NCBI RefSeq assembly: GCF_022763245.1
Contig: NZ_JALEGV010000022.1
Coordinates: 1 to 63,943 of the forward strand
Length of the DNA stretch: 63,943 bases
Source: Oricola sp.
GTDB taxonomy: Bacteria > Pseudomonadota > Alphaproteobacteria > Rhizobiales > Rhizobiaceae
Direction of reading: 5' to 3'
Of this stretch, positions 2,116 to 16,200 are shown one piece after another. A model generated the notes under the pieces. That model searched no databases. It was not told where the DNA came from and worked only from the letters and a program-made list of their open reading frames with translations. Numbering within the stretch: position 1 is the first letter of the stretch; each line of letters begins with the position of its first letter. The position numbers were made by a program, and so were the translations under genes.

Positions 2116-2781
2116 TCAGGACGTCTTGCCTTCCGTGCTGCGCTGCTCTTTCAGTTGCCGTACAGCCGCATCCCGGGACAGTCTGATCGTCTGGCTGTTG
2201 ATTTCTCCGGCCCGCTCCGCGTCCCCGGTCCTTATGGCTTCAACCAGTTCCGCCCAAAGCCCGGACGACTGCTTTCTGCGCTCCTCGGTCATCAGACCCA
2301 ATTGCGCATAACGCAGCGTTTGACGCGACAGGGACTGGATCATGTCGACGAGCTTGGCGCTCCCTGACGCGCCGGCGACGATCTGTCCGGCCTGAGAGCT
2401 CAGCGCGATGTAGTCGGTCGCGCTGAGATCGCCATTGGCGCCCTGCACCATCGCGTCCACGGTTCCGCTCAGCCGCGCGAGAGTCGTCGGATCGATGCTC
2501 CTGGCGGCCTGCTGTGCGGCGAGCACGGAAAGCGCCGCCCGAATGTCGAACAATTGCTCGACTTCCTCAATGCTCAGTTCGGTGACCTGGGCGCCGCGCC
2601 GCGGAGAAAAGGTCACCAGCCCCTCCTTCTCAAGCAGCCGCAGCGCCTCGCGCACCGGCCCCCGGCTCACATTGAACGCAGTGGCAACCGGGATTTCCTG
2701 AATGCGCTCGCCGGGCCCGATTTCCCCCGCAAGAATGGCGTTGCAGATGCGATCCGCGATCTGCTCCGGAAGGCTGAGCAT
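2116..2781 (-). CDS. GntR-family transcriptional regulator, FCD (FadR-like) subfamily
   Basis: A 221-residue predicted cytoplasmic DNA-binding protein. The N-terminal ~65 residues form a winged helix with the family signature 'VSRGPVREALRLLEKEGLV'; the rest is a helical FCD ligand-binding domain ('FDIRAALSVLAAQQAA'). FCD domains usually bind small carboxylic acids, often with a metal ion. I chose the ATG at 2781 because GGAGGG lies 6 bases upstream; an in-frame ATG at 2850 has only a poor ribosome site. It is the last gene of the leftward operon (CT, BC, BCCP, BioY, GntR), 206 bases beyond bioY, so it is the obvious local regulator. The TTGTcaACAA-type operator in the 6.75 kb divergent promoter fits this family. 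The effector is unknown. Confidence 0.88.
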   Translation of the reverse strand: MLSLPEQIADRICNAILAGEIGPGERIQEIPVATAFNVSRGPVREALRLLEKEGLVTFSPRRGAQVTELSIEEVEQLFDIRAALSVLAAQQAARSIDPTTLARLSGTVDAMVQGANGDLSATDYIALSSQAGQIVAGASGSAKLVDMIQSLSRQTLRYAQLGLMTEERRKQSSGLWAELVEAIRTGDAERAGEINSQTIRLSRDAAVRQLKEQRSTEGKTS

Positions 2782-2987
2782 GGCACCCTCCGGCCGGAAG
2801 GCAAAGGCGTAGCGCGGGGGGTGTTTCGCGAAGCTTTCTGGGTCAATCATCCGTCGCCAACCTATTCACAACGCCGAGCAGCGCAACATGCGCAAGAGAA
2901 CGCCGCAGCCCGCGGTGGGCAGTCCGGCCGGCATTATTGGACGCAGGTAACGCCTGATTCAAGCCGGCCGGGCGGCGGATTCACCGT

Positions 2988-3566
2988 TTAGCGTGAACCC
3001 TCCAGCCATGTGCGCAGGGTGCCGAGCGCGCCAAACAACGCCGCTCCCAGTCCAGCCTTGAACAGGGTCGCCAACAGGAAGGGCTCGACACCTGATCGCC
3101 ACGCGGCATCCCAGCCCATTGCGATCCCCAGCCAGAGCGCACCAAGCGTCAGGATGAGGGCGTGCCCCGCCACCATGCCGGCGGCCGCCTTCCAGAACGA
3201 ACTCAGCCAGCCACGCTCGGCAGCCCACCCTGTCAGCACCGCGGCGACAAGAAAGCCGAGGAGATATCCCCCGGTCGGCCCTGCCATGTACGCAAGTCCC
3301 AGGCCGCGTTCCGGCGTTCCTGCGAATACGGGCAGACCGAGCGCACCCTCGACAAGATAGGCTCCGACAACAAGCAGCGCGCCGCGCGCGCCAAATCCCA
3401 TACCGACGGCCAGAATGGCGGCCGTTTGCATGGTCATGGGAACAGGCCAGAATGGGACCTGAATTTTGGCGCTGGCGATCAACAGCAGATTTGCCAGGAC
3501 GGCCGCCGCCGCAAACCAGCCCAAACGCGATGTGCTGGCGGTGCCGGTGAGTTTTTGCGTCAACAT
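2988..3566 (-). CDS. bioY: BioY family biotin transporter (ECF S component)
   Basis: A 192-residue integral membrane protein with about six hydrophobic segments. The BioY hallmark 'PFWPVPMTMQT' is near residues 38-48, and 'YLVEGALGLPVFAG' and 'GPTGGYLLGF' follow. BioY binds and imports biotin, alone or with the BioMN energising module; no bioM or bioN is in the window. AAGGAGA lies just upstream of the ATG. It sits 31 bases after the biotinyl carrier gene in a carboxylase operon, so it probably secures cofactor for the enzymes encoded beside it. The family assignment is strong; the operon role is inferred from position. Confidence 0.92.
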   Translation of the reverse strand: MLTQKLTGTASTSRLGWFAAAAVLANLLLIASAKIQVPFWPVPMTMQTAAILAVGMGFGARGALLVVGAYLVEGALGLPVFAGTPERGLGLAYMAGPTGGYLLGFLVAAVLTGWAAERGWLSSFWKAAAGMVAGHALILTLGALWLGIAMGWDAAWRSGVEPFLLATLFKAGLGAALFGALGTLRTWLEGSR

Positions 3567-3597
3567 GGTTTGTCTCCTTGATAATCGCGGCCAGGCG

Positions 3598-3822
3598 TCA
3601 AACGCTCATGCGGGCGATGACCTGCCCTTCTTCGACCAGATCGTTTTCAGTGACCAGAATTTCGGTAATGACACCGTCAAGCGGCGCGCCGACGGGAATC
3701 TCCATTTTCATGGATTCAAGCGTGACCACCGGATCATCTTCCGAGACGCTGTCGCCAACTGATGCGTCAATCTTCCAGACGGTACCTGTCAGGGATGATC
3801 GTATGTCCTTGGTCTTGCTCAT
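3598..3822 (-). CDS. Single-domain biotin carboxyl carrier protein
   Basis: This 74-residue protein is essentially one biotinyl/lipoyl domain with no N-terminal linker. It carries 'ESMKMEIP', with Lys39 as the expected biotinylation site. It should shuttle carboxyl groups on biotin between the biotin carboxylase encoded 12 bases upstream and the carboxyltransferases of the cassette. Stand-alone carriers of 70-75 residues are known in multi-subunit acyl-CoA carboxylases, whereas AccB of housekeeping acetyl-CoA carboxylase is about twice as long. AGAGGA lies before the ATG. It is the only carrier gene here, yet there are two carboxyltransferase genes, which implies sharing. Confidence 0.93.
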   Translation of the reverse strand: MSKTKDIRSSLTGTVWKIDASVGDSVSEDDPVVTLESMKMEIPVGAPLDGVITEILVTENDLVEEGQVIARMSV

Positions 3823-3834
3823 GCCGGGTTCCTC

Positions 3835-5187
3835 TTATGAAATGGGGGAAAGGCCGGAAATCAGTCCGGTATGGACCCGGCCGGAAACAAAATCCGCGTC
3901 TTGCAGGATGTGAAGCAGAAGCGGAATGTTGGTCTTCGGACCGCTGATCCGGGTTTGCCGCAGGGCAGCGCTCAGCTTCGCGATGGCCTCAGGCCGGTCC
4001 GTTCCGGTGGCGATCACTTTGGCGATCATGGGATCGTAAAAGGGTGTGATCGTCGTTCCGGCCGCGAAGCCGGTATCAACTCTGATCCCTTCGCCTTCCG
4101 GCATGTCGAAATCCGCGATCGCACCCGGCGAGGGCAGGAACGTCTTGGGGTCCTCGGCATAGATCCTGGCCTGCACGGAATGTCCGGTCAGTTTTGGTCG
4201 CGGCGCCACCGCGTCCATGGCCTCGCCCTCAGCCAGCCGGATCTGGATCTCCACGAGGTCGGTGCCGGTGACCTCCTCGGTGACGCCATGCTCCACTTGC
4301 AGCCTCGTGTTCATTTCCAGGAAGGAGAACCCGATGTCGGGGTGATAGAGCATCTCCACCGTGCCGATGGTGGAATAGCCGAGCGCGGCAACGGCGGCGG
4401 CGGCCCGCTCGCCCATCGCGTCGAGTTCGGCGCGCGGAACCGCCGGAGCCCCCGCTTCCTCGATCACCTTCTGATGCCGCCGCTGGACCGAGCAGTCGCG
4501 CTCGAAGAAGTGCCGCGCCTTACCGAACCGGTCGACCGCGATCTGGAACTCGATATGCCGGGGGCGCTCGACAAGGCGCTCGAGATAGACTTCTGCGTCC
4601 GCGAATGCGCGGCTCGCCACACTTCTGGCGCGCGCCACCGCCGCCAGCAATTCTCTGGAACTGAGGGCCGGCTGCATTCCGATCCCGCCGCCGCCATTGG
4701 CGGGTTTGACAAGCACGGGATAGCCCAGCTCATCTCCGGCCTTGAGCACCGCCTCGTCGCTGTCAGGCAAGGCCCCCGAACTGGGCACCATGGGCAGGCC
4801 GGCAGCCGCCATCTTGCGGCGTGCTTCGGTTTTTTCGCCCATGGCGCGGATGACATCCGGCGAGGGACCTATGAAAGCGACGCCCGCCTCGGCGCATTTC
4901 TGCGCAAATCCCGGGTTTTCGGACAGGAACCCGTAGCCCGGATGGATGGCGTCCGCGCCGAAGCGCTTTGCGGCCGCAATGATGAAGTCCTGGTCAAGAT
5001 AGCTTTCGCTGGCCCTGTTGCCCGGGGCTTCCGCCCTGAACGCGGCCTGCCCGACATAGGGAAGGTCCGCATCCGCGGGCGAGTGGACCACACCCACCTC
5101 CCTGCCCATGCGCTTTGCGGTTCGCATGACCCGGGCGGCGACAGCACCCCGATTGGCGATCAGAATCGTCTTATACATCGATGCCAT
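3835..5187 (-). CDS. Acyl-CoA carboxylase, biotin carboxylase subunit
   Basis: A 450-residue ATP-grasp enzyme that carboxylates the biotin of the carrier protein using ATP and bicarbonate. The N-terminal domain opens with 'ILIANRGAVAARV' (canonical NRGEIA is altered here). 'HPGYGFLSENP' is at 82-92, the glycine-rich ATP loop 'KPANGGGGIGM' at 161-171, and 'ERDCSVQRRHQK' at 229-240. Further on are 'EMNTRLQVEH' and a biotin-carboxylase C-terminal domain. The length fits a stand-alone subunit rather than a fused alpha chain. Its ATG directly abuts the TGA of the upstream carboxyltransferase, so translation is probably coupled; a second in-frame ATG three codons later is possible. The biotin carboxylase role is certain; the final acyl-CoA substrate is not. 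Confidence 0.94.
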   Translation of the reverse strand: MASMYKTILIANRGAVAARVMRTAKRMGREVGVVHSPADADLPYVGQAAFRAEAPGNRASESYLDQDFIIAAAKRFGADAIHPGYGFLSENPGFAQKCAEAGVAFIGPSPDVIRAMGEKTEARRKMAAAGLPMVPSSGALPDSDEAVLKAGDELGYPVLVKPANGGGGIGMQPALSSRELLAAVARARSVASRAFADAEVYLERLVERPRHIEFQIAVDRFGKARHFFERDCSVQRRHQKVIEEAGAPAVPRAELDAMGERAAAAVAALGYSTIGTVEMLYHPDIGFSFLEMNTRLQVEHGVTEEVTGTDLVEIQIRLAEGEAMDAVAPRPKLTGHSVQARIYAEDPKTFLPSPGAIADFDMPEGEGIRVDTGFAAGTTITPFYDPMIAKVIATGTDRPEAIAKLSAALRQTRISGPKTNIPLLLHILQDADFVSGRVHTGLISGLSPIS

Positions 5188-6711
5188 TCATCTGTAGGGC
5201 CAGTCGGCCAGCCGTCTTCTCCCCAACCCGTTGGTTCGGGCGCGCGTGTGCACGGCCAGAGCGGAGACCAGATGGTCGCGGGTCATCGCCGGCGTGATGA
5301 CCGACTGCGCCGCGAACATTCCCGCAATCTCATAAGGCGAGTTGTCCGCCTCGACTTTGGTGCGCAGCTCCGCGAACTTCTCGGGGTCGGTCCCCCGGTC
5401 AACGCCATGCGCGATGGCCACCGCGATCCCCGGGTCCATGAAACTGACCTCGGCGCGGTTCCAGACGGAAAAGTCATCGGAATTGCGTCCGCCGCCCATA
5501 TTCACATAGGCAGCGCCGTAGCTCTTGCGCAGCACCACGGAGAGCTTGGGTACCGTGCACATTTGCAGCGCCTGGATGTTGCTCATGATCTTGGCAGGCA
5601 TGCCGCGACGCTCGCCCTGAACCCCGACGAGGAACCCGGGCTGATCAACCAGCTGGATGACGGGGATGTGGAATGAGTCGCACAAGACAAGGAACGAGAT
5701 CGCCTTGTCGCAGGCGTCGTAATCCACCGCGCCGCCCTTTTTTGCGGGATTGTTGGCCATGATGCCGACTGTCTGGCCGTCGAGCCTCGCCAGCCCCGTT
5801 ATCAGCGAGGGGGCGAACCGGCGCTTCAGATCGAAGAAACTGCCCGCGTCGACAATCGCGTCGATGACCTTGTACATGCTGTAGACCTTGGCCCGGTCCA
5901 GGGGCACGATGTCCTCCAGCGTTCGCGGGTCGGTCGCCGGCGCTTTGCCGGACCGCCTGGGCGGGGCTTCTCCGGCATGCGAGGGCATGTAGGAGAGAAA
6001 CTCGCGGATGGCCGCGATGGCCTCCTCGTCCGTGTCGACGAACTGATCCACCAGCCCCGTCACCTCGGCGTGCATCTCCCAGCCCCCGAGTTCCTCCGCA
6101 TCCACGAACTGCCCGATTGCCTGCGAGGTGACCTTCGAACTGGCGACGGCCAGCACCGCCCCTTTGCGCATCACGGCGTAGTCGGCCATGCAGGTGTACC
6201 AGGCGGACGATCCGAAACATGGCCCGAGGACCGCGCTTGCCCACGGGGTTTCGCGGGTGCGCACATATTGTTGCGGATCCCAGCTCGACGCTCCCATGCC
6301 GCGCGCGCCCATATTGTCCTGGATGCGTCCGCCTGAGGATTCGCCCAGGAATACCAGCGGCAGGCCGTTCTTGAGCGCGACGTCCTTGGCGTAGGCTATC
6401 TTTCGGGCGTTCACGGTGCTGCTGGAAGCGCCCAGAACGGTCATGTCATTGGAAACGGCACCGGCCCGGCGCCCCTCGATCTCGCCGAAGCCGACGACCT
6501 TGCCATCGGCAGGCGTCCGGTGCCTGTCTTCGGGGCGTTCGGCCGTTGCAAACAGTCCGACCTCATCGAACCGCCCTGCATCGAACAGGAGCGCAAGCCG
6601 TTCGCGGGCATTCAGCACGCCGCTGGCTCTTCGCCTGTCCAGACGTGCGGGCCCGCCCATGGCCAGCGCACGGTCGCGCCGTTCTTCAAACTCGTGCTGT
6701 GGATTGTCCAT
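5188..6711 (-). CDS. Acyl-CoA carboxylase carboxyltransferase subunit (CT1), atypical active-site loops
   Basis: A 507-residue PccB/12S-type carboxyltransferase with two crotonase-like halves, which transfers carboxyl between carboxybiotin and an acyl-CoA. The first oxyanion-hole region is unusual: 'GESSGGRIQDN' (123-133) where DSGGARIQ is typical, and 'GPCFGSSAWYT' (163-173) where GPCAGGAVYS is typical. The second half keeps 'DQPGF' (356-360) and 'RKSYGAAYVNMGGG' (395-408). It is the first gene of the leftward operon, with AGGAGG before the ATG, and reads out of the divergent operator region. Family assignment is firm. The altered loops suggest a substrate other than propionyl- or acetyl-CoA, or a subunit whose partner supplies activity. 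Confidence 0.92.
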   Translation of the reverse strand: MDNPQHEFEERRDRALAMGGPARLDRRRASGVLNARERLALLFDAGRFDEVGLFATAERPEDRHRTPADGKVVGFGEIEGRRAGAVSNDMTVLGASSSTVNARKIAYAKDVALKNGLPLVFLGESSGGRIQDNMGARGMGASSWDPQQYVRTRETPWASAVLGPCFGSSAWYTCMADYAVMRKGAVLAVASSKVTSQAIGQFVDAEELGGWEMHAEVTGLVDQFVDTDEEAIAAIREFLSYMPSHAGEAPPRRSGKAPATDPRTLEDIVPLDRAKVYSMYKVIDAIVDAGSFFDLKRRFAPSLITGLARLDGQTVGIMANNPAKKGGAVDYDACDKAISFLVLCDSFHIPVIQLVDQPGFLVGVQGERRGMPAKIMSNIQALQMCTVPKLSVVLRKSYGAAYVNMGGGRNSDDFSVWNRAEVSFMDPGIAVAIAHGVDRGTDPEKFAELRTKVEADNSPYEIAGMFAAQSVITPAMTRDHLVSALAVHTRARTNGLGRRRLADWPYR

Positions 6712-6750
6712 TGTTCCTCCTGTCCGACCATACCGGCATCCGATGTAGGA

Positions 6751-6788
6751 TTGTCAACAAAAATTTTATTTACAATCGTGTTGACAAC
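6751..6788. promoter_or_regulatory. Candidate GntR/FCD operator in the divergent carboxylase promoter
   Basis: The 121-base gap between the two divergent operons has an AT-rich core in an otherwise GC-rich window. It holds TTGTcaACAA (6751-6760), a perfect inverted repeat, and GTTGaCAAC (6780-6788), another small palindrome. The 9-base arms TTGTCAACA (6751-6759) and TGTTGACAA (6779-6787) are also perfect inverted complements of each other, 28 bases apart. TTGT-n-ACAA is the usual shape of FCD-type GntR operators, and a GntR gene closes the leftward operon. Two sites about three helical turns apart could let the regulator control both operons. Binding itself is inferred. Confidence 0.6.
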
Positions 6789-6832
6789 ACGTCGGCGTCG
6801 CCGAATAGTTCGAGAAAAGCGAGGAGGGTCAA

Positions 6833-8119
6833 GTGCCATCACGACAAAGTGGCGATCGCCAGGGAGGCGGGGCAAACCGGATGCCGCTTTCGGGGTACCG
6901 GGTGCTGGAACTGTGCAGCACCATTGCCGGGCCCGCCTGCACGCGGCTCATGGCTGATTTTGGAGCCGAGGTGATCAAGGTCGAGCCGCGCGACGGGGAC
7001 TCGGTCCGCGGGATTGGCGGTCAGGACCACGGCGTGTCGCTCTATGGCGCGGCCATTTTGCGGAACAAGGAATCCATCTCGGTCAACATCAAGACCGAAG
7101 AGGGACGGCGGATCGTTCATGACCTCGCCACCCGATGCGACATTGTCGTTGAGAACTTCCGGCCCGGCACTCTCGAGCGACTGGGGTTGGACTACGCGAC
7201 CCTTTCCGCGGCGAACCCCAAACTCGTCCTCGTGCGCATCAGCGGCTACGGCCAGGACGGCCCCTATTCCGCCAAGGCGGGTTATGGGGCGATCTGCGAG
7301 GCCTTCGCCGGCGTTCGCCACATGACGGGCGAACCCGACCGGCCGCCGTCTCGCGTCGCCCTCGCCACGACCGACTATCTGACCTCGGTCTATGCCGCAT
7401 TCGGCGCGATGGTGGCGCTGCTGAACGCAAAGGAAACCGGCAAGGGCCAGGTGGTCGATGCCGCGCTCTACGAGGCCGCCTTCAGCATGATGGAATCGGT
7501 GGTGCCGACCTATGATCGTCTCGGCACGGTCCCTTCACGGCAGGGCTCGAAACTCCCCGGCACCGCACCGAACAACCTCTACCTGACGGCCGACGACACC
7601 TATGTGCTGATCGCCGCCAACAACAATGCCGTGTTTCATCGGCTGGCGCAGGCCATGGGGCAGGAAGAGCTCATCACCGACCCCCGGTTTCTCAACATTC
7701 GCGACCGCAGCGAAAATGACGACGCCCTCGACCAGGAAGTGGCCAAATGGGCGCGCACCGTCGACAGCGAGACCGCGATCGGCCTTCTGGAAGACGCTGG
7801 CGTACCCGCTTCCCGGGTCAACACCGTCGCCGACATCTTCACTGACGAGCATTTCGCGGCCCGCGACATGCTGGTCCCTGTCCCGCATCCCGATCTCGGG
7901 TCGGTCACGGTGGCGGGCGTGGTGCCGAAACTGTCCGATACGCCCGGCGAGATCCGCCATCTGGGGCATCGCATCGGCCAGGACACTTTTGGCGTGCTGG
8001 AGCGTTTGCTGGGCCTCACAGCCTCCGAGGTCCAAGATCTTGCAGCACGCCAAATCATCTTTCAGTCGCCGTATTCCGGCGCGCAGGAGCCGGCGGTCCG
8101 GCACGCAGCAAAGGTCTAG
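6833..8119 (+). CDS. CaiB/BaiF family (class III) CoA-transferase
   Basis: A 428-residue predicted cytoplasmic enzyme of the formyl-CoA transferase family, which moves CoA from a donor acyl-CoA to a free carboxylic acid. Visible family features are 'VLELCSTIAGPACTRLMADFGAEVIKVE' split across residues 24-51, 'ENFRPGTLERLGLDY' (107-121), and the region 'ATTDYLTS' with Asp171 at the expected catalytic position. It starts with GTG, with GAGGAGGG four bases upstream; a downstream ATG at 6881 is less well placed. It is the first gene of the rightward operon and is followed three bases later by a second carboxyltransferase. With the TRAP genes this suggests activation of an imported organic acid. 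The donor and acceptor are unknown. Confidence 0.92.
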   Translation: MPSRQSGDRQGGGANRMPLSGYRVLELCSTIAGPACTRLMADFGAEVIKVEPRDGDSVRGIGGQDHGVSLYGAAILRNKESISVNIKTEEGRRIVHDLATRCDIVVENFRPGTLERLGLDYATLSAANPKLVLVRISGYGQDGPYSAKAGYGAICEAFAGVRHMTGEPDRPPSRVALATTDYLTSVYAAFGAMVALLNAKETGKGQVVDAALYEAAFSMMESVVPTYDRLGTVPSRQGSKLPGTAPNNLYLTADDTYVLIAANNNAVFHRLAQAMGQEELITDPRFLNIRDRSENDDALDQEVAKWARTVDSETAIGLLEDAGVPASRVNTVADIFTDEHFAARDMLVPVPHPDLGSVTVAGVVPKLSDTPGEIRHLGHRIGQDTFGVLERLLGLTASEVQDLAARQIIFQSPYSGAQEPAVRHAAKV

Positions 8120-8122
8120 ACG

Positions 8123-9715
8123 GTGGTTCGAGGGAAGCTGGAAAACGAAGGCGGCTGGGACGACGAGATCGACGATCTGCATCGCCGCAGACACATCGCC
8201 GGGCAGATGGGCGGCGCCGATTCCGTCGCGCGGCAACACGGTTTCGGCAAGCTGACGGCCCGCGAACGGATCGAGAAGCTGTGCGATCCGGACTCCTTCA
8301 GGGAGTATGGCAGCCTGGTGGGCAAGGCCACCTATGCCGACGACGGAACACTGGAAGACTTCACCCCCGCAAACAGCGTGACGGGAACCGGCCGCATCGA
8401 CAAGCGTCACGTCTGCGTGGCGGCGGACGATTTCACCATTCGCGGCGGGTCGTCGGAGGCGGCCAATCCCGACAAATGGGTCTATGCCGAGCGGCTGGCG
8501 CTCGAAGCCGCGACGCCGCTGGTCCGGCTGGTGGACACCGCCGGCGGGAGCGTGAAGCTCCTCGACCAGAACCAGACCACCCGCTTCCCCGACTATTCCA
8601 AATGGCCCATCCTGCCGCTGCTCGAGGCGGTTCCCGTGGTCGGCGTGGCGATGGGATCCTGCGCCGGGCTGGGCGCGCTCAAGGTGATCGCTTCGCATTT
8701 CTCCATCATGGTTCGCGATACCAGCCAGGTGTTCGCGGCAGGGCCGCCGGTGGTGAAGCAGGCCCTCGGCATCGAAATCGACAAGAACGATCTCGGCGGC
8801 TACATGGTCCATTCCCGCCACAGCGGCATGGTGGACAATGAGGCCGTCGACGAAGAGGATGCGCTACGCCAGGTGCGGGCCTTCCTGTCCTACATGCCAC
8901 GCAATGTCTGGAGCCTTCCCGAACGCCTCGACACGGGCGATCCGCGCGACCGCGAGGAAGAATGGTTGAACACCGCCATCCCCAGGAACCGGCGCAAGGT
9001 CTTTGATCCGCGCAAGATCGTCGAGGCGATCGTCGACAAGGACAGCGTGTTCGAGATCGGCCGCTATCACGGCAAATCCATCCTCACCATGCTGGCCCGC
9101 CTCGACGGCGTTCCGGTCGGCGTCATGATCGGCGACACGCGGGAAGCAGGCGGCGCCATGACGCTGACATCCGCCAACAAGGTCGAGCGCTTCGTCGAAC
9201 TCTGCGACCGTTTTCACCTGCCGGTGGTCAATTTCGTCGACCAGCCCGGCAACATGACGGGCCCAGAGGCGGAGCGCGCGGCGACACTGACCGGCGCCCT
9301 CAGGGTGATGAAGGCCATCGAACGGGCAACCGTTCCCTGGGTCACCGTCGTCATCCGCCGGGCCTTCGGCCTGGCGGGGGGATTGCACGGTGCGCAATTC
9401 GGACGCGACGGCGGGCGCAGGCCGCTCAACCACCGCTTCGGATGGCCCTCCGCACGCTGGGGATCGATCCCGATCGAAGGCGGGGTGGCGGCGGCCTACA
9501 AGCGCGAAATCGCGGGCGCCGACGATCCGGATCGCAAGCGAGAGGAACTCGAGGCCCATTACGGGCGCCTCAGTTCGCCCATGCGGACGGCCGAGCGCTT
9601 CTTCATCGTGGACATCATCGAACCGAAGAAAACGCGGCCGTTGCTGTGCGATTGGATCGATCTTTGCCAGGACCGTCTGAAACTCACCGCGGAGGGTGTC
9701 GGCATCGTGAACTGA
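8123..9715 (+). CDS. Acyl-CoA carboxylase carboxyltransferase subunit (CT2), divergent from CT1
   Basis: A 530-residue second carboxyltransferase, clearly a different subgroup from CT1. The N-terminus reads 'GFGKLTARERIEKLCD' (40-55). The first active-site loops are 'DTAGGSVKLLD' (138-148) and 'GSCAGLGALKV' (178-188), both departing from the PccB consensus. The C-terminal half ends with 'WPSARWGSIPIEGGV', seen in many acyl-CoA carboxyltransferases. The stretch around residues 420-440 (HGAQFGRDGGRRPLNHR) looks poorly conserved but the frame stays open. It starts with GTG three bases after the CoA-transferase stop. It may form mixed hexamers with CT1, act on another acyl-CoA, or run decarboxylation in a transcarboxylation pair. 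Confidence 0.9.
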   Translation: MVRGKLENEGGWDDEIDDLHRRRHIAGQMGGADSVARQHGFGKLTARERIEKLCDPDSFREYGSLVGKATYADDGTLEDFTPANSVTGTGRIDKRHVCVAADDFTIRGGSSEAANPDKWVYAERLALEAATPLVRLVDTAGGSVKLLDQNQTTRFPDYSKWPILPLLEAVPVVGVAMGSCAGLGALKVIASHFSIMVRDTSQVFAAGPPVVKQALGIEIDKNDLGGYMVHSRHSGMVDNEAVDEEDALRQVRAFLSYMPRNVWSLPERLDTGDPRDREEEWLNTAIPRNRRKVFDPRKIVEAIVDKDSVFEIGRYHGKSILTMLARLDGVPVGVMIGDTREAGGAMTLTSANKVERFVELCDRFHLPVVNFVDQPGNMTGPEAERAATLTGALRVMKAIERATVPWVTVVIRRAFGLAGGLHGAQFGRDGGRRPLNHRFGWPSARWGSIPIEGGVAAAYKREIAGADDPDRKREELEAHYGRLSSPMRTAERFFIVDIIEPKKTRPLLCDWIDLCQDRLKLTAEGVGIVN

Positions 9716-9794
9716 ATCCCGGGCGGAGTTCGAGAGCTTCTCCAACCTTTGCCCACTCGATTGGTCGTTCAAATTTCAAAAGGGAGGAACCGGA

Positions 9795-10793
9795 ATGAAT
9801 TTGACCAGACTCGCGCTTGGCGCAATCCTAACAGGCACAACCCTGGTGAGCTGTCTTGCTCCGGCAGCAGCTCGGGACTTCACTCTCAAGCTGGCACATC
9901 ACTATCCCGATGTTCACATCCAGGCAGCCGGGCTGAAGCTTTTCGCCGAGGAGGTTGAGGCGAAGTCCGAAGGCCGTATCAAGGTCGAGGTCTATCCGGC
10001 CGAAACGCTGGTCTCCGGCCGTGAAGCGCTTGACGCGGTTGAAAACAACGTCGTTCAGGCCGCGCCGATGCCGGGCAATTACCAAACCGGCATCATTCCG
10101 TCCCTGCAATATTTCACCTACCCGTTCATGTTCGACGACGCGTCGCATTTCCGCCGGGCGGTTGAGGGCGGGATCAAGGACCTGCTGGTGCCCGAATATG
10201 CAAAACACAACATCGTGCTGCTGAACTACTACCACAAGGGCGCGCTGCACCTGATGGACAAGGGCAAGTTCCTTACCTCCGAGGACGCGTTCAGCGGAGA
10301 GCGTGTCCGCAGCCTCGGCCCGGCGATCTCCGAATTGCTTTCGGCTCTCGGCGCCAATCCGCTGTCGGTTCCGCTGGGCGAAGTCGATTCCGCGATCGAA
10401 CGCAATGTCATCGACGCAGTGACAACGAACTGCGCGGCCCACACGTCGCGCGGCTGGGTCGAGCACCTCAAATTCGTGACCTTTGCCGACATGTCTCAAG
10501 GTGGTGAAGGGCTGGGTATCAATGCCGGCTTCTACAACGGCCTGCCTGCCGATCTGCAGGAGATCGTCCAACAGGCAGCCAAGGACATGGAAGACCTGGA
10601 ATGGACCAGCATGATCGCGGATGACGAGGAGGCGTGCTTTGACAAGTGGGAGAAGGCCGGCGCTCAGGTCCACAAGCTGACCGCAGAGGAAAAGGCCCTG
10701 TTCGTGTCCCGCTCGCGGCCCATTCTGGACAAGGCCATCGCCGACAATCCTGATATTCAGCCGTTCGCCGACATCGCGGATCAGACACGATGA
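9795..10793 (+). CDS. dctP: TRAP transporter substrate-binding protein, DctP family
   Basis: A 332-residue periplasmic protein with a signal peptide of about 26 residues ending near 'APAAARDFTLKLAHH'. Family features are 'LKLAHHYPD' at the mature N-terminus, 'RIKVEVYPAETL' (61-72) and 'GERVRSLGP' (168-176). Arg172 is at the place of the conserved TRAP arginine that clamps the substrate carboxylate. GGGAGGAA lies before the ATG. It captures an organic acid and delivers it to the DctQM permease encoded immediately downstream. It follows CT2 by 79 bases, so uptake and CoA chemistry are probably co-transcribed. The retained arginine supports a carboxylate ligand but does not identify it. Confidence 0.93.
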   Translation: MNLTRLALGAILTGTTLVSCLAPAAARDFTLKLAHHYPDVHIQAAGLKLFAEEVEAKSEGRIKVEVYPAETLVSGREALDAVENNVVQAAPMPGNYQTGIIPSLQYFTYPFMFDDASHFRRAVEGGIKDLLVPEYAKHNIVLLNYYHKGALHLMDKGKFLTSEDAFSGERVRSLGPAISELLSALGANPLSVPLGEVDSAIERNVIDAVTTNCAAHTSRGWVEHLKFVTFADMSQGGEGLGINAGFYNGLPADLQEIVQQAAKDMEDLEWTSMIADDEEACFDKWEKAGAQVHKLTAEEKALFVSRSRPILDKAIADNPDIQPFADIADQTR

Positions 10794-11320
10794 AACTTGC
10801 CGCCCGCTTCCAGGCCCTGTCACACGCCGTCGCCTGGTTCCTGCAGATGATCGCCGGAGCCGTCCTGGTCCTGACCGCGATCTGCGTCACCCTCAATGCG
10901 ACGTTGCGATACGGCTTCCACAAGGACATCGCGCTCCTGACGGAAGCGGGCGGCTACATCTTTCTTTTCGTTGTCTTCTTCGGGCTCGCGGCGGCATTCG
11001 TCGCGGGTTCGCACGTCTCCATCGAAATTCTCTCGCTCGTCGCGCCGAAGCGGCTTGCGCGCTTCATGTACGACATCGTGGTCCCCCTGGTCTCGATGGT
11101 GTTCGTTGGCGCCGTTCTCTATGCCGGCGCGGTCATCGCCCAGCGCTATTACCTGACCGGCCGGCTCACCGACGGGAGTGTTCCGCTGCCGTTCTGGTGG
11201 TTCATCGCCATCGTGCCGATCGGGTGCGTCGCAATGGAACTCAGCCTCCTTTCCCACGTGTTTGAAAATCTGCGGAAGTGGAAGCAAACACCCGCTTCAA
11301 GCTCGAAGAGCTCACGTTAG
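10790..11320 (+). CDS. dctQ: TRAP transporter small permease subunit, DctQ family
   Basis: A 176-residue inner-membrane protein with about four hydrophobic helices (near 15-38, 48-70, 90-113 and 135-158), the usual DctQ layout. Charged and polar residues between helices ('RYGFHKDIALLTEAGGYIFLF') fit the family. Its ATG overlaps the dctP stop by four bases (ATGA), indicating translational coupling. It pairs with DctM to form the sodium-driven TRAP permease; TRAP systems use an ion gradient rather than ATP. The C-terminal tail is short and Ser/Lys-rich. Confidence 0.9.
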   Translation: MKLAARFQALSHAVAWFLQMIAGAVLVLTAICVTLNATLRYGFHKDIALLTEAGGYIFLFVVFFGLAAAFVAGSHVSIEILSLVAPKRLARFMYDIVVPLVSMVFVGAVLYAGAVIAQRYYLTGRLTDGSVPLPFWWFIAIVPIGCVAMELSLLSHVFENLRKWKQTPASSSKSSR

Positions 11321-11337
11321 GAAACGGAAACACCTGT

Positions 11338-12648
11338 ATGTCTGTCGAGGTCATCGGTCTTCTTTTCATCGCCGGCATGCTGTTCGCGATCTTTCTCGGG
11401 CTGCCCGTCGCCATCGCGCTCGGCAGCGTGGGCTTGCTCAGCCTGTTCTATGTCGGCGGCACCTCGACACTGATCGTGATGGCTGGCGGCACCGCTGTCT
11501 ATCAGCTGTCGCATTTCGGCCTGCTCGCCATTCCGCTCTTCATGCTGATGAGTTCGACGATCAAGGCTTCCGGCATCGGCGCGAACATCGTCGACCTCGT
11601 CATCAAATGGCTGCACAAAGTCCCCGGCGCGCTGCATTCGGCGGCCGTCGTCTCGTGTGCGATCTTCGCAGCCATGTCGAGTTCGTCGGTGGCGACCGCC
11701 GCGGCGATCGGCGGCTTCGTGCTGCCCGAGATGAAACGGCGCGGACACAATCTGAGGCTCGGCATCGGCGCCGTCGCAGTTGGCGGAACGCTGGGGATCA
11801 TGATCCCCCCAAGCAACTACTTCATCCTTTACGGGGTGCTGACGGAAACCTCGATCACCAAGCTCTTCATGGCCGGCATCGTGCCCGGATTGATGATCGT
11901 GAGTGCGGTGATTGCGTTCAACACCGTCTTGTTCCGGTTGCGGCCCGACTTGAACTCCACCGAGGTCACCGAGGAAGCACCCGGCTGGGCAGTGAAATTC
12001 CAGGCCCTGCGCAAGGCATGGACGGGACTTGTCCTGATCGTCGCGGTCATCGGCGGGATATTCCTGGGGGTCGTGACGCCGACCGAGGCAGGCGGGCTTG
12101 GCGCGGTCATCGCGCTTCTGATCGGCGTGTTTGTGCTCAAGAGCGTCAATCGCAGCAGGTTCGTCGAGATCCTGGTCGAAGCGGTCCAGACCACAAGCAT
12201 GATGGGGTTCATCATCTATGGCGGACTGCTTCTGGCCCGTGCCTCCACCATGATGAACCTTTCGACCTATCTGATCGGGGTGATCACCGAATCCGGGCTT
12301 GAACCCTGGCAGGTCCTGCTCCTCATCAATCTGCTTCTGCTGGTCCTGGGCATGTTCATGGACGCCGCCGCGATCACCATTCTGACGGTGCCGCTCCTGT
12401 TCCCGGTGATCGTTTCACTCGGCTTCGACCCGATCTGGTTCGGGGTTGTCGTGGCCCTGAACATGGAACTGGCGCTCGTCACACCGCCGGTGGGCCTCAA
12501 CATTTTCGTGCTCAAGGCCGTGGCGGGCGTGTCATTGCGCGAAGCCCTGCTGGGGACGATGCCCTATGCGGCCCTTCTCTTCGTCTGCCTCGGCATTCTC
12601 ATCGCATTCCCGCAGATTGCCCTTTGGCTGCCCGGCATGATCCAGTGA
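11338..12648 (+). CDS. dctM: TRAP transporter large permease subunit, DctM family
   Basis: A 436-residue polytopic inner-membrane protein (roughly 12 helices). DctM signatures include 'GLPVAIALGSVGLLSL' near the N-terminus, 'AMSSSSVATAAAIGGFVLPEM', 'GGTLGIMIPPSNYFILYG' and 'VTPPVGLNIFVLKAVAG' near the C-terminus. It is the transport channel of the TRAP system. The frame is open back to 11278, but the ATG at 11338, 17 bases after dctQ ends, gives the expected hydrophobic start ('MSVEVIGLLFIAGML') and has an AGGAAA sequence upstream. It is the last gene of the rightward operon; no clear intrinsic terminator is visible after it. Confidence 0.93.
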   Translation: MSVEVIGLLFIAGMLFAIFLGLPVAIALGSVGLLSLFYVGGTSTLIVMAGGTAVYQLSHFGLLAIPLFMLMSSTIKASGIGANIVDLVIKWLHKVPGALHSAAVVSCAIFAAMSSSSVATAAAIGGFVLPEMKRRGHNLRLGIGAVAVGGTLGIMIPPSNYFILYGVLTETSITKLFMAGIVPGLMIVSAVIAFNTVLFRLRPDLNSTEVTEEAPGWAVKFQALRKAWTGLVLIVAVIGGIFLGVVTPTEAGGLGAVIALLIGVFVLKSVNRSRFVEILVEAVQTTSMMGFIIYGGLLLARASTMMNLSTYLIGVITESGLEPWQVLLLINLLLLVLGMFMDAAAITILTVPLLFPVIVSLGFDPIWFGVVVALNMELALVTPPVGLNIFVLKAVAGVSLREALLGTMPYAALLFVCLGILIAFPQIALWLPGMIQ

Positions 12649-13271
12649 CGTGATCGCCTTCCAGCGGCCGCGACGACCGGGAACCCGATGTTTCCCGGTT
12701 CTGCCCACACAACGCGGCCCGAAGGCAAACTGAGCGCCGCCACACTGGCCGGTTCGGCATCGCCGGGCGCAGGTCGGTCCCAGGTCAGTCCCAGGCCATC
12801 CAGACTTTCCGCCCCGAGGCCGGACGGGTCGTCCAGCGCGACCTTCCGGTTTCAGCCGGTCGGCGGCCGGTGACCAGGGTTTCCGGACGTCCCCGGCCGA
12901 ACCGGCAGCAGTCCCGGTGTCACGAATCTCGGCAACGAATCGACGGTGAAATAATCAGATGATCGGGGTTGCGGCGCGGCATTTTTCAAATTGCAAATCG
13001 CTGCAGAAGCCGCCGTGTATTGCTCCCCGACAAGTGTATGAAATTCATGAATTTAATTTGCCGGTTTCGGCGAAAAGCACGCGTAGATTTTCAATTTGAA
13101 AAGACGGCATTCAATTGACTGCAAATATTCGCGCAAATAAATTGTAGTCATCCAAAATTGATCGGAAATGCAGAAGATGCGAGCGCTGACAAACGCGCTC
13201 GATCGCTGACCTATTGTGCTTTTGCAACCCTCCGGTGGTTTTGGCCGCAGACACCATTTGGGGACGTGATC
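12649..13271. other. 623-base intergenic region between dctM and the large autotransporter gene
   Basis: No convincing gene lies here. The first ~310 bases are GC-rich and unstructured to the eye. From about 12955 to 13150 the sequence becomes AT-rich, with repeated AAATTT-like words such as TTCAAATTGCAAAT and TTTTCAATTTGAAAA. The latter is nearly palindromic and may bind a regulator or nucleoid protein. This AT-rich part directly precedes the candidate promoter of the autotransporter gene. Confidence 0.6.
13115..13143 (+). promoter_or_regulatory. Candidate sigma-70 promoter of the large autotransporter gene
   Basis: TTGACT (13115-13120) and TAAATT (13138-13143) are separated by exactly 17 bases in an AT-rich stretch. 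Transcription would begin near 13150, leaving a leader of about 120 bases before the GTG at 13272. The leader contains GAGCG...CGCTC, a possible small hairpin. This is a pattern match only. Confidence 0.45.
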
Positions 13272-16200
13272 GTGCGCAGTGTAACGAAGAAGGCGAGCAG
13301 CAACTCAGGGGCGGTCCTGCCGGGGTTTGCGGTTTCGAAATCCGAAATGCCCGACAAACCCGGCGCCGGTGTCGAGCGGGCCACCAGGGCGCTTGCCGGT
13401 GTGACGCTGTCGATGGGTTCAACGCCCGCGATGCGCTTCCTTGGCGCGATTGCGATTGCGGCGGTCGCGGCGCTCGTCCTTCTCCCGCGCGCAGGTCATG
13501 CCGGGCCGGGTCCGTGCCTTCAAGACGGAAACACGGTGACCTGTACGGGCGACCAATCCGCGGGCGTCCTGGAGCCAACGGATTACGCCTCGCCGCCCAC
13601 ACAGATATTCATCATCGATTCGACGACCGCGATCACACCCGTCGCCGGCAATTCCGGCGTCGACGCGAGCGGCGACGATGTCGGGCTCTACGACATCACC
13701 GTGCGCGCTCCCAACGGGATCTTCATCACAGGGGATCTCGCTGCGGGCATAAATGCCGGACTTGCGACAGGCAATCCGGTTCCGCCGTTCAATGGCGATG
13801 TGATCGTCAATTCCGAAGCGAATATTTCCGCCAATGGCACAAGGATGCAGGGCATCTCGGCGTTCGTAGGCGGCAGCGGCAGCGTCACTGTCACGTCGGT
13901 TGGAGATATCACCGTCAACACCAACCTCGACCCGGCCGGATTCGGCGAGGCGATCAACGCATCGGTCGGCGATACCGGCAATGTCACAGTCGATACCACA
14001 GGCAACATCACCACGACCAACGCGGTCGGGATAAACGCTGCGGCAAACATCGGTAACGTCAGCATTACGAATGCAGGCGACATCGCGGTGTCTGGCGATG
14101 GAGTGGAAGCGATTAGCGCGAATACGGTGTCGGGGGACATATCGATAACGAGTTCCGGAAACATCTCGGCGGATGGCGGTCAGCCCGCTCTCGAAGCAAT
14201 CATTGTCGATACCGGCAATATCTCGCTTTCGAGCACCGGCAATATCACGACCACGAATGCGCAGGGCATCAGTGCGGTGACGAGTAATGGGACTGTCGAC
14301 GTCACGAATGACGGAAATGTCGAGGTTACGGGAGATGATCAGCACGGCATCTTGTTTGCGGCGAACAACGGCAACCTGTCGCTCACAAGCACCGGCAACG
14401 TGACAACGAACGGCGTCGGAGCTCATGGATTCGCATCGGTATTCAATGGCGACGTCACGATCACATCGGAAGGCGACATCACTGCATCAGGTGACGGTTC
14501 AGCTGGCATCTATCTGCTCCGGGGCGGAGAACCTGCGGTCGGCACGCTCGCCAGCATCACCTCGACCGGAGATATCCTCGCGACGGGGGCCGGCTCTGCC
14601 GGCGTCTTCGCGGGGCTCGACGACAACATGTTCGGGTCGTTTGCCTTCACCGGAAATGTGAGCGCGACAGGATCAGCGTTTCAGGTCGAAGTTGGCGCGG
14701 GCGGGGCGTTCTTCGATCTGAGCGGCGGCGTTTTTGCAGGTGGCACTGGTGCCGCGATCGACATTCCCAATGTCGCAGGCGTCGAGAATGCCTTTGTCAC
14801 CATCAACACCGACGCGTCGACGACCCTGACTGCCGCCTCCGGCACCGCTGTCGTCAGCAATGCGGGCGCAACGACGATCAACAATTCCGGCCTGATGGAC
14901 GGCAGTGTGTTGCTGCGGTCCGGCGGGAACAACCGGATCAACAATCTGGCCGGCGCAACCTTTGCTCCGGACTCAGATGTCATCGTCGGGGCAGGCAGAT
15001 TTGTCGTCAATGACGGTACGTTTTCGCCATTCGGACTTGGCACGCTCGGCACGACTCAGGTCACCGGGAACCTGTATTCCAACGAAGGCGCCACCTATCA
15101 GGTCGACATATCCGACATCGGCTCGGACGCGACGAGCGTCGACGGCCAGTTCACCCTGAACGGCACGCTGGACATCAACGCGACGACGCCCGAAAACACA
15201 TTCGCCGTCAACGACGTGTTCTCCATCGCCGACGCATCGGGCGGAATATACGGCACATTTTCCAGCGTGACGGACAATCTCGCCAACTTCGAGATCGTGC
15301 CGCTGATCGCCCGCGACCGGTCGCAGCTCGCCGCGGTGCTGACGACCGACGGGATCTTCACGACCGGGGACTGTTCCGCGGTCGCCGGGGTTGTCGTGTG
15401 TTCGGGAAACCAGTCGGACGGGATCACCAATATCGGCCTGACGCCGGATTTCGCGTCGCTGACGTCCAACCAGCTCGTGGTCGAGAACCTGACGCAAACG
15501 GTCGGCGCACCATCCGGAGCGGCGGCGGTAGAGGTGCTGGTCAACAACCCGTCCGGCTTCTTCGCCGACATCGACACGGGGGTGCACGGCATCAGCACGG
15601 TTGGCCAGGGACAGAGAGGCATAGAGGTGTTCAACACCGGCGGTGCGGTCAGCATCGAGTCGGCCGGGGACATCTCGACGCTTGGCAGGAATGCTAATGG
15701 GATCGTCGGTGTGACCACCGGCGGTGGCGATGTGTCGATCACGTCGTCTTCGGACATCTCGACGACCGCCATCGATACACACGCCGTCATCGGTGAAACA
15801 CAGAACGAAAACGGCGGGGTCACCATCACCAACTCTGGCGAGATCGTCACGACCGGCGGGTTGTCGAAGGGATTGCTGGCGTCGGTGCGGGAAGTCGGCG
15901 ACATAAGCATCACCAATACCGGGGCCATCAGGACACAGCATGACTCGATTTATGCCCTGGCTCGGCGGGGCGGCAACATCACGATCGACAACACCGCCGA
16001 TCTTGCGTCAGGGGGCGATAACGCCATTGTTGCCGTGGTTGGCGACGATGATGTCGGAGATGGCAACATCACCATCAACTCGGTCGGAAATCTGTCTGTC
16101 GTCGATGGTGAGTCTGCCGGAGGTATTGGCGCCGATGTGGAAGGGGACGGCGATATCGACATATCGTCCTCTGGCGACATTACCGCCAACGGAGGGTTTG

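Follow-up and report, generated by a model that had tools for sequence, protein, structure and literature searches.

A conserved ten-gene set for putative organic acid uptake, CoA activation and biotin-dependent carboxylation in Oricola sp.

The contig NZ_JALEGV010000022.1 of Oricola sp. (assembly GCF_022763245.1; its full 63,943 nucleotides are referred to here as the window) carries, between positions 2116 and 12648, ten open genes in two divergent operons with a common 121 bp promoter region (frame list and Pfam). They encode a tripartite ATP-independent periplasmic (TRAP) importer, a class III CoA-transferase, two carboxyltransferases (CT1 and CT2), one biotin carboxylase (BC), one biotin carboxyl carrier protein (BCCP), a BioY biotin transporter and a GntR-family regulator. 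On balance we think it probable, if only somewhat so, that they form a regulated catabolic module for one organic acid, which would be imported, activated with CoA and carboxylated, with two CT steps served by one BC and one carrier. Import, CoA loading and biotin-dependent carboxyl transfer are predicted from the protein families, and we infer the substrate class of the importer, the CoA donor, the action of CT2 on the CoA-transferase product and the order of the CT steps. A first-pass annotation of this DNA had proposed an uptake-plus-(trans)carboxylation module; what stands of it is a conserved set for uptake, CoA activation and biotin-dependent carboxylation, distinct from the propionyl-CoA carboxylase (PCC)-like CT of the same genome, and its option of a mixed CT hexamer is weakened.

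Conservation of the module in relatives

The linkage of the module genes is more than chance. All ten genes recur in the same order in Aquamicrobium zhengzhouense (locus L073), with identities of 77% for CT2, 73% for the CoA-transferase, 72% for CT1, 70% for DctM, 64% for BCCP, 63% for both DctP and BC, 62% for GntR, 49% for BioY and 41% for DctQ. The co-distribution of CT1 and CT2 over 349 genomes, described below, likewise speaks for the linkage.

Scanning bacterial and archaeal genomes with an alignment of CT1 yielded at least 546 confirmed candidates, the best 80 of which were taken as CT1 loci; these include related strains, 26 are shorter than 19 kb, and by record title they are mostly from alpha-, beta- and gammaproteobacteria and Bacillota. 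Counted by tblastn at score thresholds that we set ourselves, a CoA-activating enzyme was present in 70 of the 80 loci, a carrier in 71, BC in 54 and CT2 in 48; a 5S-type CT was found in 17, and CT2 or a 5S-type CT in 61. TRAP genes were found in 20 loci, a TctC-type binding protein in 28 and a biotin transporter in six. Counts from reading frames differ slightly (CT2 49, CoA-transferase 28, activating enzyme 67, BC 54, TRAP 22 and TctC 26 of 80). Among the 54 loci of at least 19 kb, the activating enzyme and the carrier were each present in 50, BC in 42, CT2 in 29 and CT2 or 5S in 42. The type of activating enzyme varies among the loci (class III CoA-transferase in 31, ADP-forming ligase in 25, AMP-forming ligase in 17, SucCD-like in four), which suggests that what the loci have in common is a need to activate an acid.

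TRAP, CT2, CoA-transferase, BC and carrier stood together in six of the 80 loci (L073, L096, L098, L099, L116 and L125). Plasmid stretches of Variovorax (L068) and Cupriavidus (L069, L070) carry the core with TctC-type binding proteins instead of TRAP, and a 25 kb Sulfitobacter stretch (L071) holds CT1, BC, carrier, BioY and TctABC-type genes, with neither CT2 nor a CoA-transferase seen along its length. The importer type varies, the core is more constant and TRAP is one of several importers; the TRAP-carboxylase linkage on which the first-pass annotation had staked its reading thus holds for part of the loci only, with TctC in more of them than TRAP. The CoA-transferase gene lies beside CT2 in the window and in L068, L073, L081, L158, L159 and L161.

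Genes neighbouring the 80 loci include enoyl-CoA hydratases (13 loci), short-chain dehydrogenases/reductases (11) and thiolases (12), and the product may be degraded by beta-oxidation-like steps. A further set, whole or in part, lies near CT1 in L075, L077, L080, L082, L084, L086-L088, L090, L093, L097, L102, L157 and L163: a long carrier, a BC, two 5S/pyruvate-carboxylase-B-like CTs, an OB-fold protein, an AMP-forming ligase and a thiolase, a set that might carboxylate a keto compound before thiolysis. L107, L132 and L138 carry, a few kb upstream of CT1, a methylmalonyl-CoA mutase-like gene (one was assigned with Pfam and the others by clustering; the L138 frame is partial).

Carboxylase subunits and the two CT clades

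By family, the module holds the parts expected of a biotin-dependent acyl-CoA carboxylase: a CT domain, a BC with a conserved catalytic segment and a carrier with the Lys of ESMKM, which we take to be the biotin attachment motif. The segment EMNTRLQVEH of BC is identical to that of the two solved relatives compared, and the Lys before the glycine-rich loop is kept; the residue after GGGG is Ile, where both relatives have Lys. CT1 and CT2 each match the full CT domain (Pfam Carboxyl_trans, cut-off 22.3 bits). In a FastTree phylogeny of 168 CTs they fall into two separate clades, and both of these are other clades than that of the PCC beta subunits. The PCC-like CT elsewhere in the Oricola genome (contig C9, 646.6 bits) is 34% identical to CT1 and 31% to CT2, and two weaker, partial CT matches in the genome may be AccA and AccD.

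Each clade has motifs of its own. The CT1 clade has the consensus ESSGAR.PD, RKSYGQAYLNM and MDP, from which CT1 of the window departs in part (ESSGGRIQD, RKSYGAAYVNM); the CT2 proteins have, with exceptions, GGSV-type, (F/Y)G(L/V/M)AG and WGS(I/L)P.EGG motifs, which in the window read DTAGGSV, RRAFGLAGG and WPSARWGSIPIEGG. These motifs presumably adjoin the two oxyanion-hole regions, taking the residue roles from work on PCC. At the position of the PCC Asp, the CT1 clade has Leu (75%) or Ile, with Val in the window, and the aligned 1vrg, 1x0u, 12S and 3n6r likewise have Ile, Leu or Val. In CT2, Gly replaces the Tyr throughout the near and far clades, and the Asp position is Gly in the window, mostly Ala, Thr or Gly in the near clade and mostly Met in the far clade. 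The closest solved match of both proteins is 1x0u, a hypothetical methylmalonyl-CoA decarboxylase alpha subunit (E 3e-88 for CT1, 1e-74 for CT2), followed by the PCC beta subunit 1vrg (E 7e-83 and 1e-72).

Co-distribution of CT1 and CT2

Across 349 genomes of the order to which the Candidimonas genome G409 belongs (CT1 at E <=1e-120, at most four candidates scored per genome), CT1 was found in 31, CT2 in 36 and both in 24. CT2 was thus present in 24/31 CT1 genomes versus 12/318 others (Fisher p 3e-22), and a CT2 at least 58% identical to that of the window occurred in seven genomes, six of them with CT1 (p 2e-6), both p values ignoring relatedness. With genomes previously known for CT1 removed, p was 2e-20 (G409 and G433 out) and, for CT2 at the 58% level, 2e-5 (G409 out). 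The two genes lie within 15 kb of each other in 18 of the 349 genomes. Reading frames showed no CT2 in the CT1 locus of 18 genomes, chosen for this reason; a CT2-like protein was found in 14 of them (E <=1e-80), eight being 55-59% identical, and none was found in the other four. Some of the eight are near CT1 (about 13 kb away in Pseudomonas G394, taken as the same contig; within the locus in L083).

In a sample of the window's own class, a search confined to CT2 found a CT2-like protein in 74 of 385 genomes (E <=1e-100). Fifteen genomes of this sample were placed on the tree, 14 of which had only sister-clade proteins in the fetched stretches; in the fifteenth (G044, L048) CT2 lies beside a divergent CT1. 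In L056 and L059-L064 of the same class, a pair of closely spaced CT2-like genes represents two sister clades, with no BC or carrier like those of the window in the fetched 7-19.5 kb stretches.

Putative biotin supply

No bioB over the family cut-off was found in the Oricola genome (98.76% complete), the best match scoring 43.1 bits against a cut-off of 225, and a BioY gene within the module fits this result. BioY is plausibly the biotin supply for the carboxylase in cells unable to make biotin. We searched for bioB in the genomes of 25 hand-picked relatives, six of which have a biotin transporter in the module: five had no bioB over the cut-off, and the sixth, Aquamicrobium (the L073 genome), has a bioB match with one in-frame stop (G385:C8:7162-8073), which may be inactive or a sequencing error. 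Among the other 19 relatives, bioB was present in 11. With Oricola added, an uninterrupted bioB occurs in 0/7 genomes with the module transporter versus 11/19 without it (p 0.010, ignoring relatedness). BioY homologues of Oricola also lie next to the PCC-like CT (C9, L052) and near another BC (C33, L053).

Predicted regulation by the GntR protein

The regulator combines a helix-turn-helix with an FCD domain, placing it among the FCD GntR proteins, whose consensus site is TnGTnnACnA. The inverted pair TTGTCAACA-N19-TGTTGACAA between the two operons fits this consensus, is matched once in the window and in none of 100 shuffles, and does not occur in exact form anywhere else in the 5.6 Mb assembly. 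Single half-sites are not rare, with four in the window at one mismatch versus 1.35 expected, and four of the 100 shuffles reach four. In relatives, the half-site TTGTTGACAA (one mismatch, either strand) was found in the 300 bases upstream of CT1 in 13/30 loci with the same GntR cluster and in 2/50 loci without it, against 0.035 expected per locus; in these 15 loci it lies 110-147 bases before a fixed CT1 codon, with a further match in two. Another 17 loci of that GntR cluster lack the half-site; CT1 is preceded by other genes of its operon in several of them (e.g. L075, L078, L082 and those of Pseudomonas), so that the regulated promoter may be at a different place. TTGACA is the sigma-70 -35 hexamer, and resemblance to it may explain part of the half-site conservation. 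The GntR protein is predicted to act on the putative operator pair between the operons.

CoA-transferase, importer and the acid

The CoA-transferase has a CoA_transf_3 domain, and the Asp of its LATTDYLT aligns with an Asp in all five solved members compared; we take this to be the catalytic residue of class III CoA-transferases. Its two top solved matches are an unnamed CaiB/BaiF protein and a formyl-CoA transferase, and the solved relatives include succinate-hydroxymethylglutarate CoA-transferase and YfdE, the latter with oxalate activity. The best NCBIfam matches are glutarate and mesaconate CoA-transferases (251 and 247 bits, cut-offs 750 and 700); no NCBIfam CoA-transferase subfamily cut-off was reached by the protein, which therefore has no named subfamily. 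DctP, DctQ and DctM all exceed their Pfam cut-offs, as expected of a TRAP transporter, and several DctP structures match the DctP of the window at similar, modest scores. These modest matches and the subfamily scores point to no particular acid. TRAP and TctC systems commonly carry dicarboxylates, and the relatives of the CoA-transferase hint, by sequence, at a dicarboxylate as the imported acid; this would favour transcarboxylation, whereas the intact BC favours carboxylation.

Proposed route and alternatives

In the route that we favour, the TRAP system would import an organic acid and the class III CoA-transferase would charge it with CoA taken, for example, from succinyl- or acetyl-CoA. 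BC would load CO2 onto the 74-amino-acid (aa) carrier at the expense of ATP, CT2 would carboxylate the acyl-CoA product of the CoA-transferase, and CT1 would act on another acyl-CoA within this route, with the one BC and the one carrier shared by both CTs. BioY would supply biotin to a host seemingly unable to make it, and the GntR protein would control both operons from the site pair between them.

Several observations weigh against this route. At the threshold used, 7/31 CT1 genomes are without CT2, and 32 of the 80 CT1 loci show none, so CT2 is not always needed. CT1 is in turn missing from 12/36 CT2 genomes, 11 of which have only a CT2 at most 51% identical to that of the window and one (G486) a CT2 at 61%. 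Distances of CT1 and CT2 co-vary (r 0.75) not clearly above those of CT1 and BC (0.72) or CT1 and GntR (0.80), and in the other type of module (L096, L098, L125) the CoA-transferase adjoins CT1, not CT2. The gene set of the window includes no hydratase, lyase or dehydrogenase to process the product further, and such genes would have to lie elsewhere in the genome. Finally, when the interrupted bioB is counted as present, the comparison for biotin becomes 1/7 versus 11/19 (p 0.081).

It is possible, though unlikely, that the module instead transcarboxylates or decarboxylates: the CoA ester of an imported dicarboxylate would give its carboxyl group to the carrier via one CT, the other CT would hand it to a second acyl-CoA, and BC would top up the carrier or run in reverse. 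Two CTs on one carrier are the layout that such a scheme needs, solved relatives of the CoA-transferase include succinate-hydroxymethylglutarate CoA-transferase and YfdE, if not as its two best matches (the glutarate and mesaconate NCBIfam matches are below cut-off), and 5S, the partner of 12S in transcarboxylase, has counterparts in the 5S-type CTs of 17 of the 80 CT1 loci. Against it stand a BC with intact motifs in the window and a BC in 54 of the 80 loci; moreover, a 5S subunit is absent from the ten proteins of the module, and loci with a single CT, BC and carrier (L110, L159) cannot transcarboxylate alone. It would be a long shot that CT1 and CT2 exchange carboxyl groups through the small carrier, the imported acid-CoA donor being degraded and a second acyl-CoA carboxylated with little or no ATP. 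If true, the loci with 5S-type CTs would conduct the same trade with another partner, and a YeiH-type exporter, recurrent next to the module in other lineages, would remove an inorganic anion freed from the acid.

A YeiH-family gene (PF03601) was found in 10 of the 80 CT1 loci versus 0.4 expected from its density (69 matches in 46 genomes), and YeiH-family anion exporters were seen near the module in L071, L073, L075, L076, L078, L079, L082, L117, L123, L125, L136, L157, L163 and L166. What they carry here may be the acid itself, bicarbonate or an anion of the sulfite type; in Salmonella, sulfite resistance is reported to require YeiH (PMC12880088). A sulfonate as the acid, suggested by this gene, was not adopted: the YeiH gene of the window genome is on another contig, no chemistry linking a sulfonate to CT1 or CT2 was seen, Variovorax alone gives five of the ten YeiH loci, and an anion transporter could equally carry bicarbonate or the acid.

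We judge it improbable that CT1 and CT2 are paralogous subunits of PCC or acetyl-CoA carboxylase (ACC) acquired with an uptake operon, the set carboxylating propionyl-CoA or acetyl-CoA. Their top solved matches, 1x0u and 1vrg, and the hydrophobic residue that CT1 shares with 1vrg, 1x0u, 12S and 3n6r at the PCC Asp position would suit such an origin, but a PCC-like CT adjoined by BioY is already present in the genome, along with the possible AccA and AccD, CT2 has Gly for Tyr and, in the window, Gly at the Asp position, and the linked CoA-transferase, importer and site pair would be left unexplained.

The first-pass annotation had offered the two CTs as sequential, alternative or a mixed hexamer, and the last of these, one complex with a single acyl-CoA specificity, now seems slightly less probable still. 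Mixed CT complexes are found in mycobacteria (AccD4-AccD5). In the structure entry 9t97, the name propionyl-CoA carboxylase beta chain is given to both chain D4a and chain D5a. The CT1 and CT2 genes are often adjacent and strongly co-occur. However, in Candidimonas and Zwartia CT1 and CT2 occupy different loci, each furnished with a BC, a carrier and an activating enzyme: an ADP-forming ligase for CT1 (L110, L148) and a CoA-transferase for CT2 (L159, L161). Such separate loci, taken with the tendency of both CTs to persist in one genome, speak against a mixed hexamer being obligatory and in favour of the CTs as two steps in one route. The CT2 locus of Bordetella (L158; CT1 locus L115) has a CoA-transferase and a carrier, with no BC seen. 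Nor is there complementary decay of the two half-sites in CT1 versus CT2; the N-domain Gly is present in 92/92 CT1 sequences, with a neighbouring Ala in 79%, and Gly-Gly in 75/75 CT2 sequences. As far as gene content tells, each CT appears able to work with its own partner set, yet both tend to stay in one genome. An apparent fusion of CoA-transferase and CT2 in L160 (976-aa frame) was dropped, as its translation shows the first half to be an out-of-frame reading.

Locus layout and gene calls

The minus-strand operon runs CT1-BC-BCCP-BioY-GntR (6711 down to 2116) and the plus-strand operon CoA-transferase-CT2-DctP-DctQ-DctM (6833 to 12648), each of the ten proteins having at least one Pfam match above the family cut-off (Table 1). 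All parts named in the first-pass annotation are therefore present as open genes, and its two operons diverging from 121 bases agree with the gap between the CT1 and CoA-transferase starts; its count of nine genes is corrected to ten.

Table 1 Features of the module in the window
Feature	Position	Strand	Evidence
GntR-family regulator, FCD subfamily, 244 aa	2116..2850	-	Pfam FCD 68 bits and GntR 60.6 bits, both over cut-off; L073 counterpart 62%
BioY biotin transporter subunit, 192 aa	2988..3566	-	Pfam BioY 107.8 bits
Biotin carboxyl carrier (BCCP), 74 aa, ESMKM	3598..3822	-	Pfam Biotin_lipoyl 64.5 bits
Biotin carboxylase (BC) subunit, 450 aa, separate from carrier	3835..5187	-	Three biotin-carboxylase Pfam domains
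Carboxyltransferase CT1, 507 aa	5188..6711	-	Pfam Carboxyl_trans 323 bits; CT1 clade
Divergent promoter region, 121 bp	6712..6832	.	Frame ends
Operator-like inverted pair TTGTCAACA-N19-TGTTGACAA	6751..6787	.	Pattern counts
Class III CoA-transferase, 428 aa, GTG start and ribosome site	6833..8119	+	Pfam CoA_transf_3 402 bits
Carboxyltransferase CT2, 530 aa	8123..9715	+	Pfam Carboxyl_trans 285 bits; CT2 clade
TRAP binding protein DctP, 332 aa	9795..10793	+	Pfam DctP 164.8 bits
TRAP small permease DctQ, 176 aa	10790..11320	+	Pfam DctQ 75.2 bits
TRAP large permease DctM, 456 aa from GTG	11278..12648	+	Pfam DctM 296.7 bits

AGGAGG-like ribosome sites were seen by eye at the starts of both CT1 and the CoA-transferase, the latter with an alternative start at ATG 6881. 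DctM probably starts at ATG 11338 and not at the mechanically called GTG 11278: the frame from the GTG overlaps DctQ, and the DctM frame of L073 begins at the residue matching ATG 11338. Long repetitive autotransporter/adhesin-like frames flank the module on the plus strand (75-1988 and 13158-18647, by eye).

Elsewhere in the Oricola genome, four half-length CT matches lie at contig ends and are taken as assembly breaks. Contigs C18, C19, C9 and C3 (L049, L050, L051, L155) hold CT genes that break off at contig ends and are present as two near-identical copies (DNA identities of 95.5% and 96.7% across some 600 bases), and one such end has DctP-, DctM- and CoA-transferase-like matches and, by eye, also an acyl-CoA ligase. 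These contigs perhaps hold a second TRAP-linked carboxylase cluster beside a leucine-type operon; judged by eye, that cluster may be of the methylcrotonyl-CoA or geranyl-CoA carboxylase (MCC/GCC) type.

Known systems and significance

The module shares with the multi-subunit ACC and PCC the families of its BC, carrier and CT, whose motifs are intact, and differs in its two CTs per BC and carrier and in its importer and CoA-transferase. With MCC and GCC it shares catabolic acyl-CoA carboxylation; these enzymes (liu and atu operons) have BC and carrier on one polypeptide, whereas in the window they are encoded apart, as a BC of 450 aa and a carrier of 74 aa, with no fused alpha subunit and no hydratase or lyase in the set. 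Both CTs align with 12S of transcarboxylase (12S, 5S, 1.3S) over nearly its full length and the carrier is likewise small; transcarboxylase has a 5S (PYC_OADA) subunit and no BC, whereas the ten window proteins include a BC and no 5S. A Na+-pumping decarboxylase of the mmdA type has a membrane beta subunit, which is absent among the ten, and the mmdA matches score 333 and 314 bits versus a cut-off of 998.8. The CoA-transferase is like the class III enzymes SUGCT, YfdE and mesaconate CoA-transferase in its full-length family match and aligned Asp, and unlike them lies below the cut-offs of the named subfamilies.

As in TRAP- and TctC-linked catabolic operons, the importer adjoins catabolic genes; we know of no such operon with a two-CT biotin carboxylase. 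Searches of an open-access library without most subscription journals turned up no published system that we recognised as having this gene combination; the first-pass annotation knew of no described pathway with the exact set. CoA-transferase and PCC genes are involved in isoprene degradation in Variovorax WS11 (PMC9804861), and the isoprene clusters of that work were set aside as a match as they hold other genes; PMC6440738 proved to have no bearing on the module. The parts are known, and it is the combination that appears to be new.

To our knowledge no substrate has been assigned to either the CT1 or the CT2 clade, and the CTs in the plasmid stretches inspected are annotated only as carboxyl transferase domain-containing protein. 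The gene set offers a testable catabolic module in alpha-, beta- and gammaproteobacteria and Bacillota, with two CT clades at its core. With the acid identified, many of these CTs could be given names, and it would become clear if a single BC with its carrier is able to support two CT steps within one degradation route.

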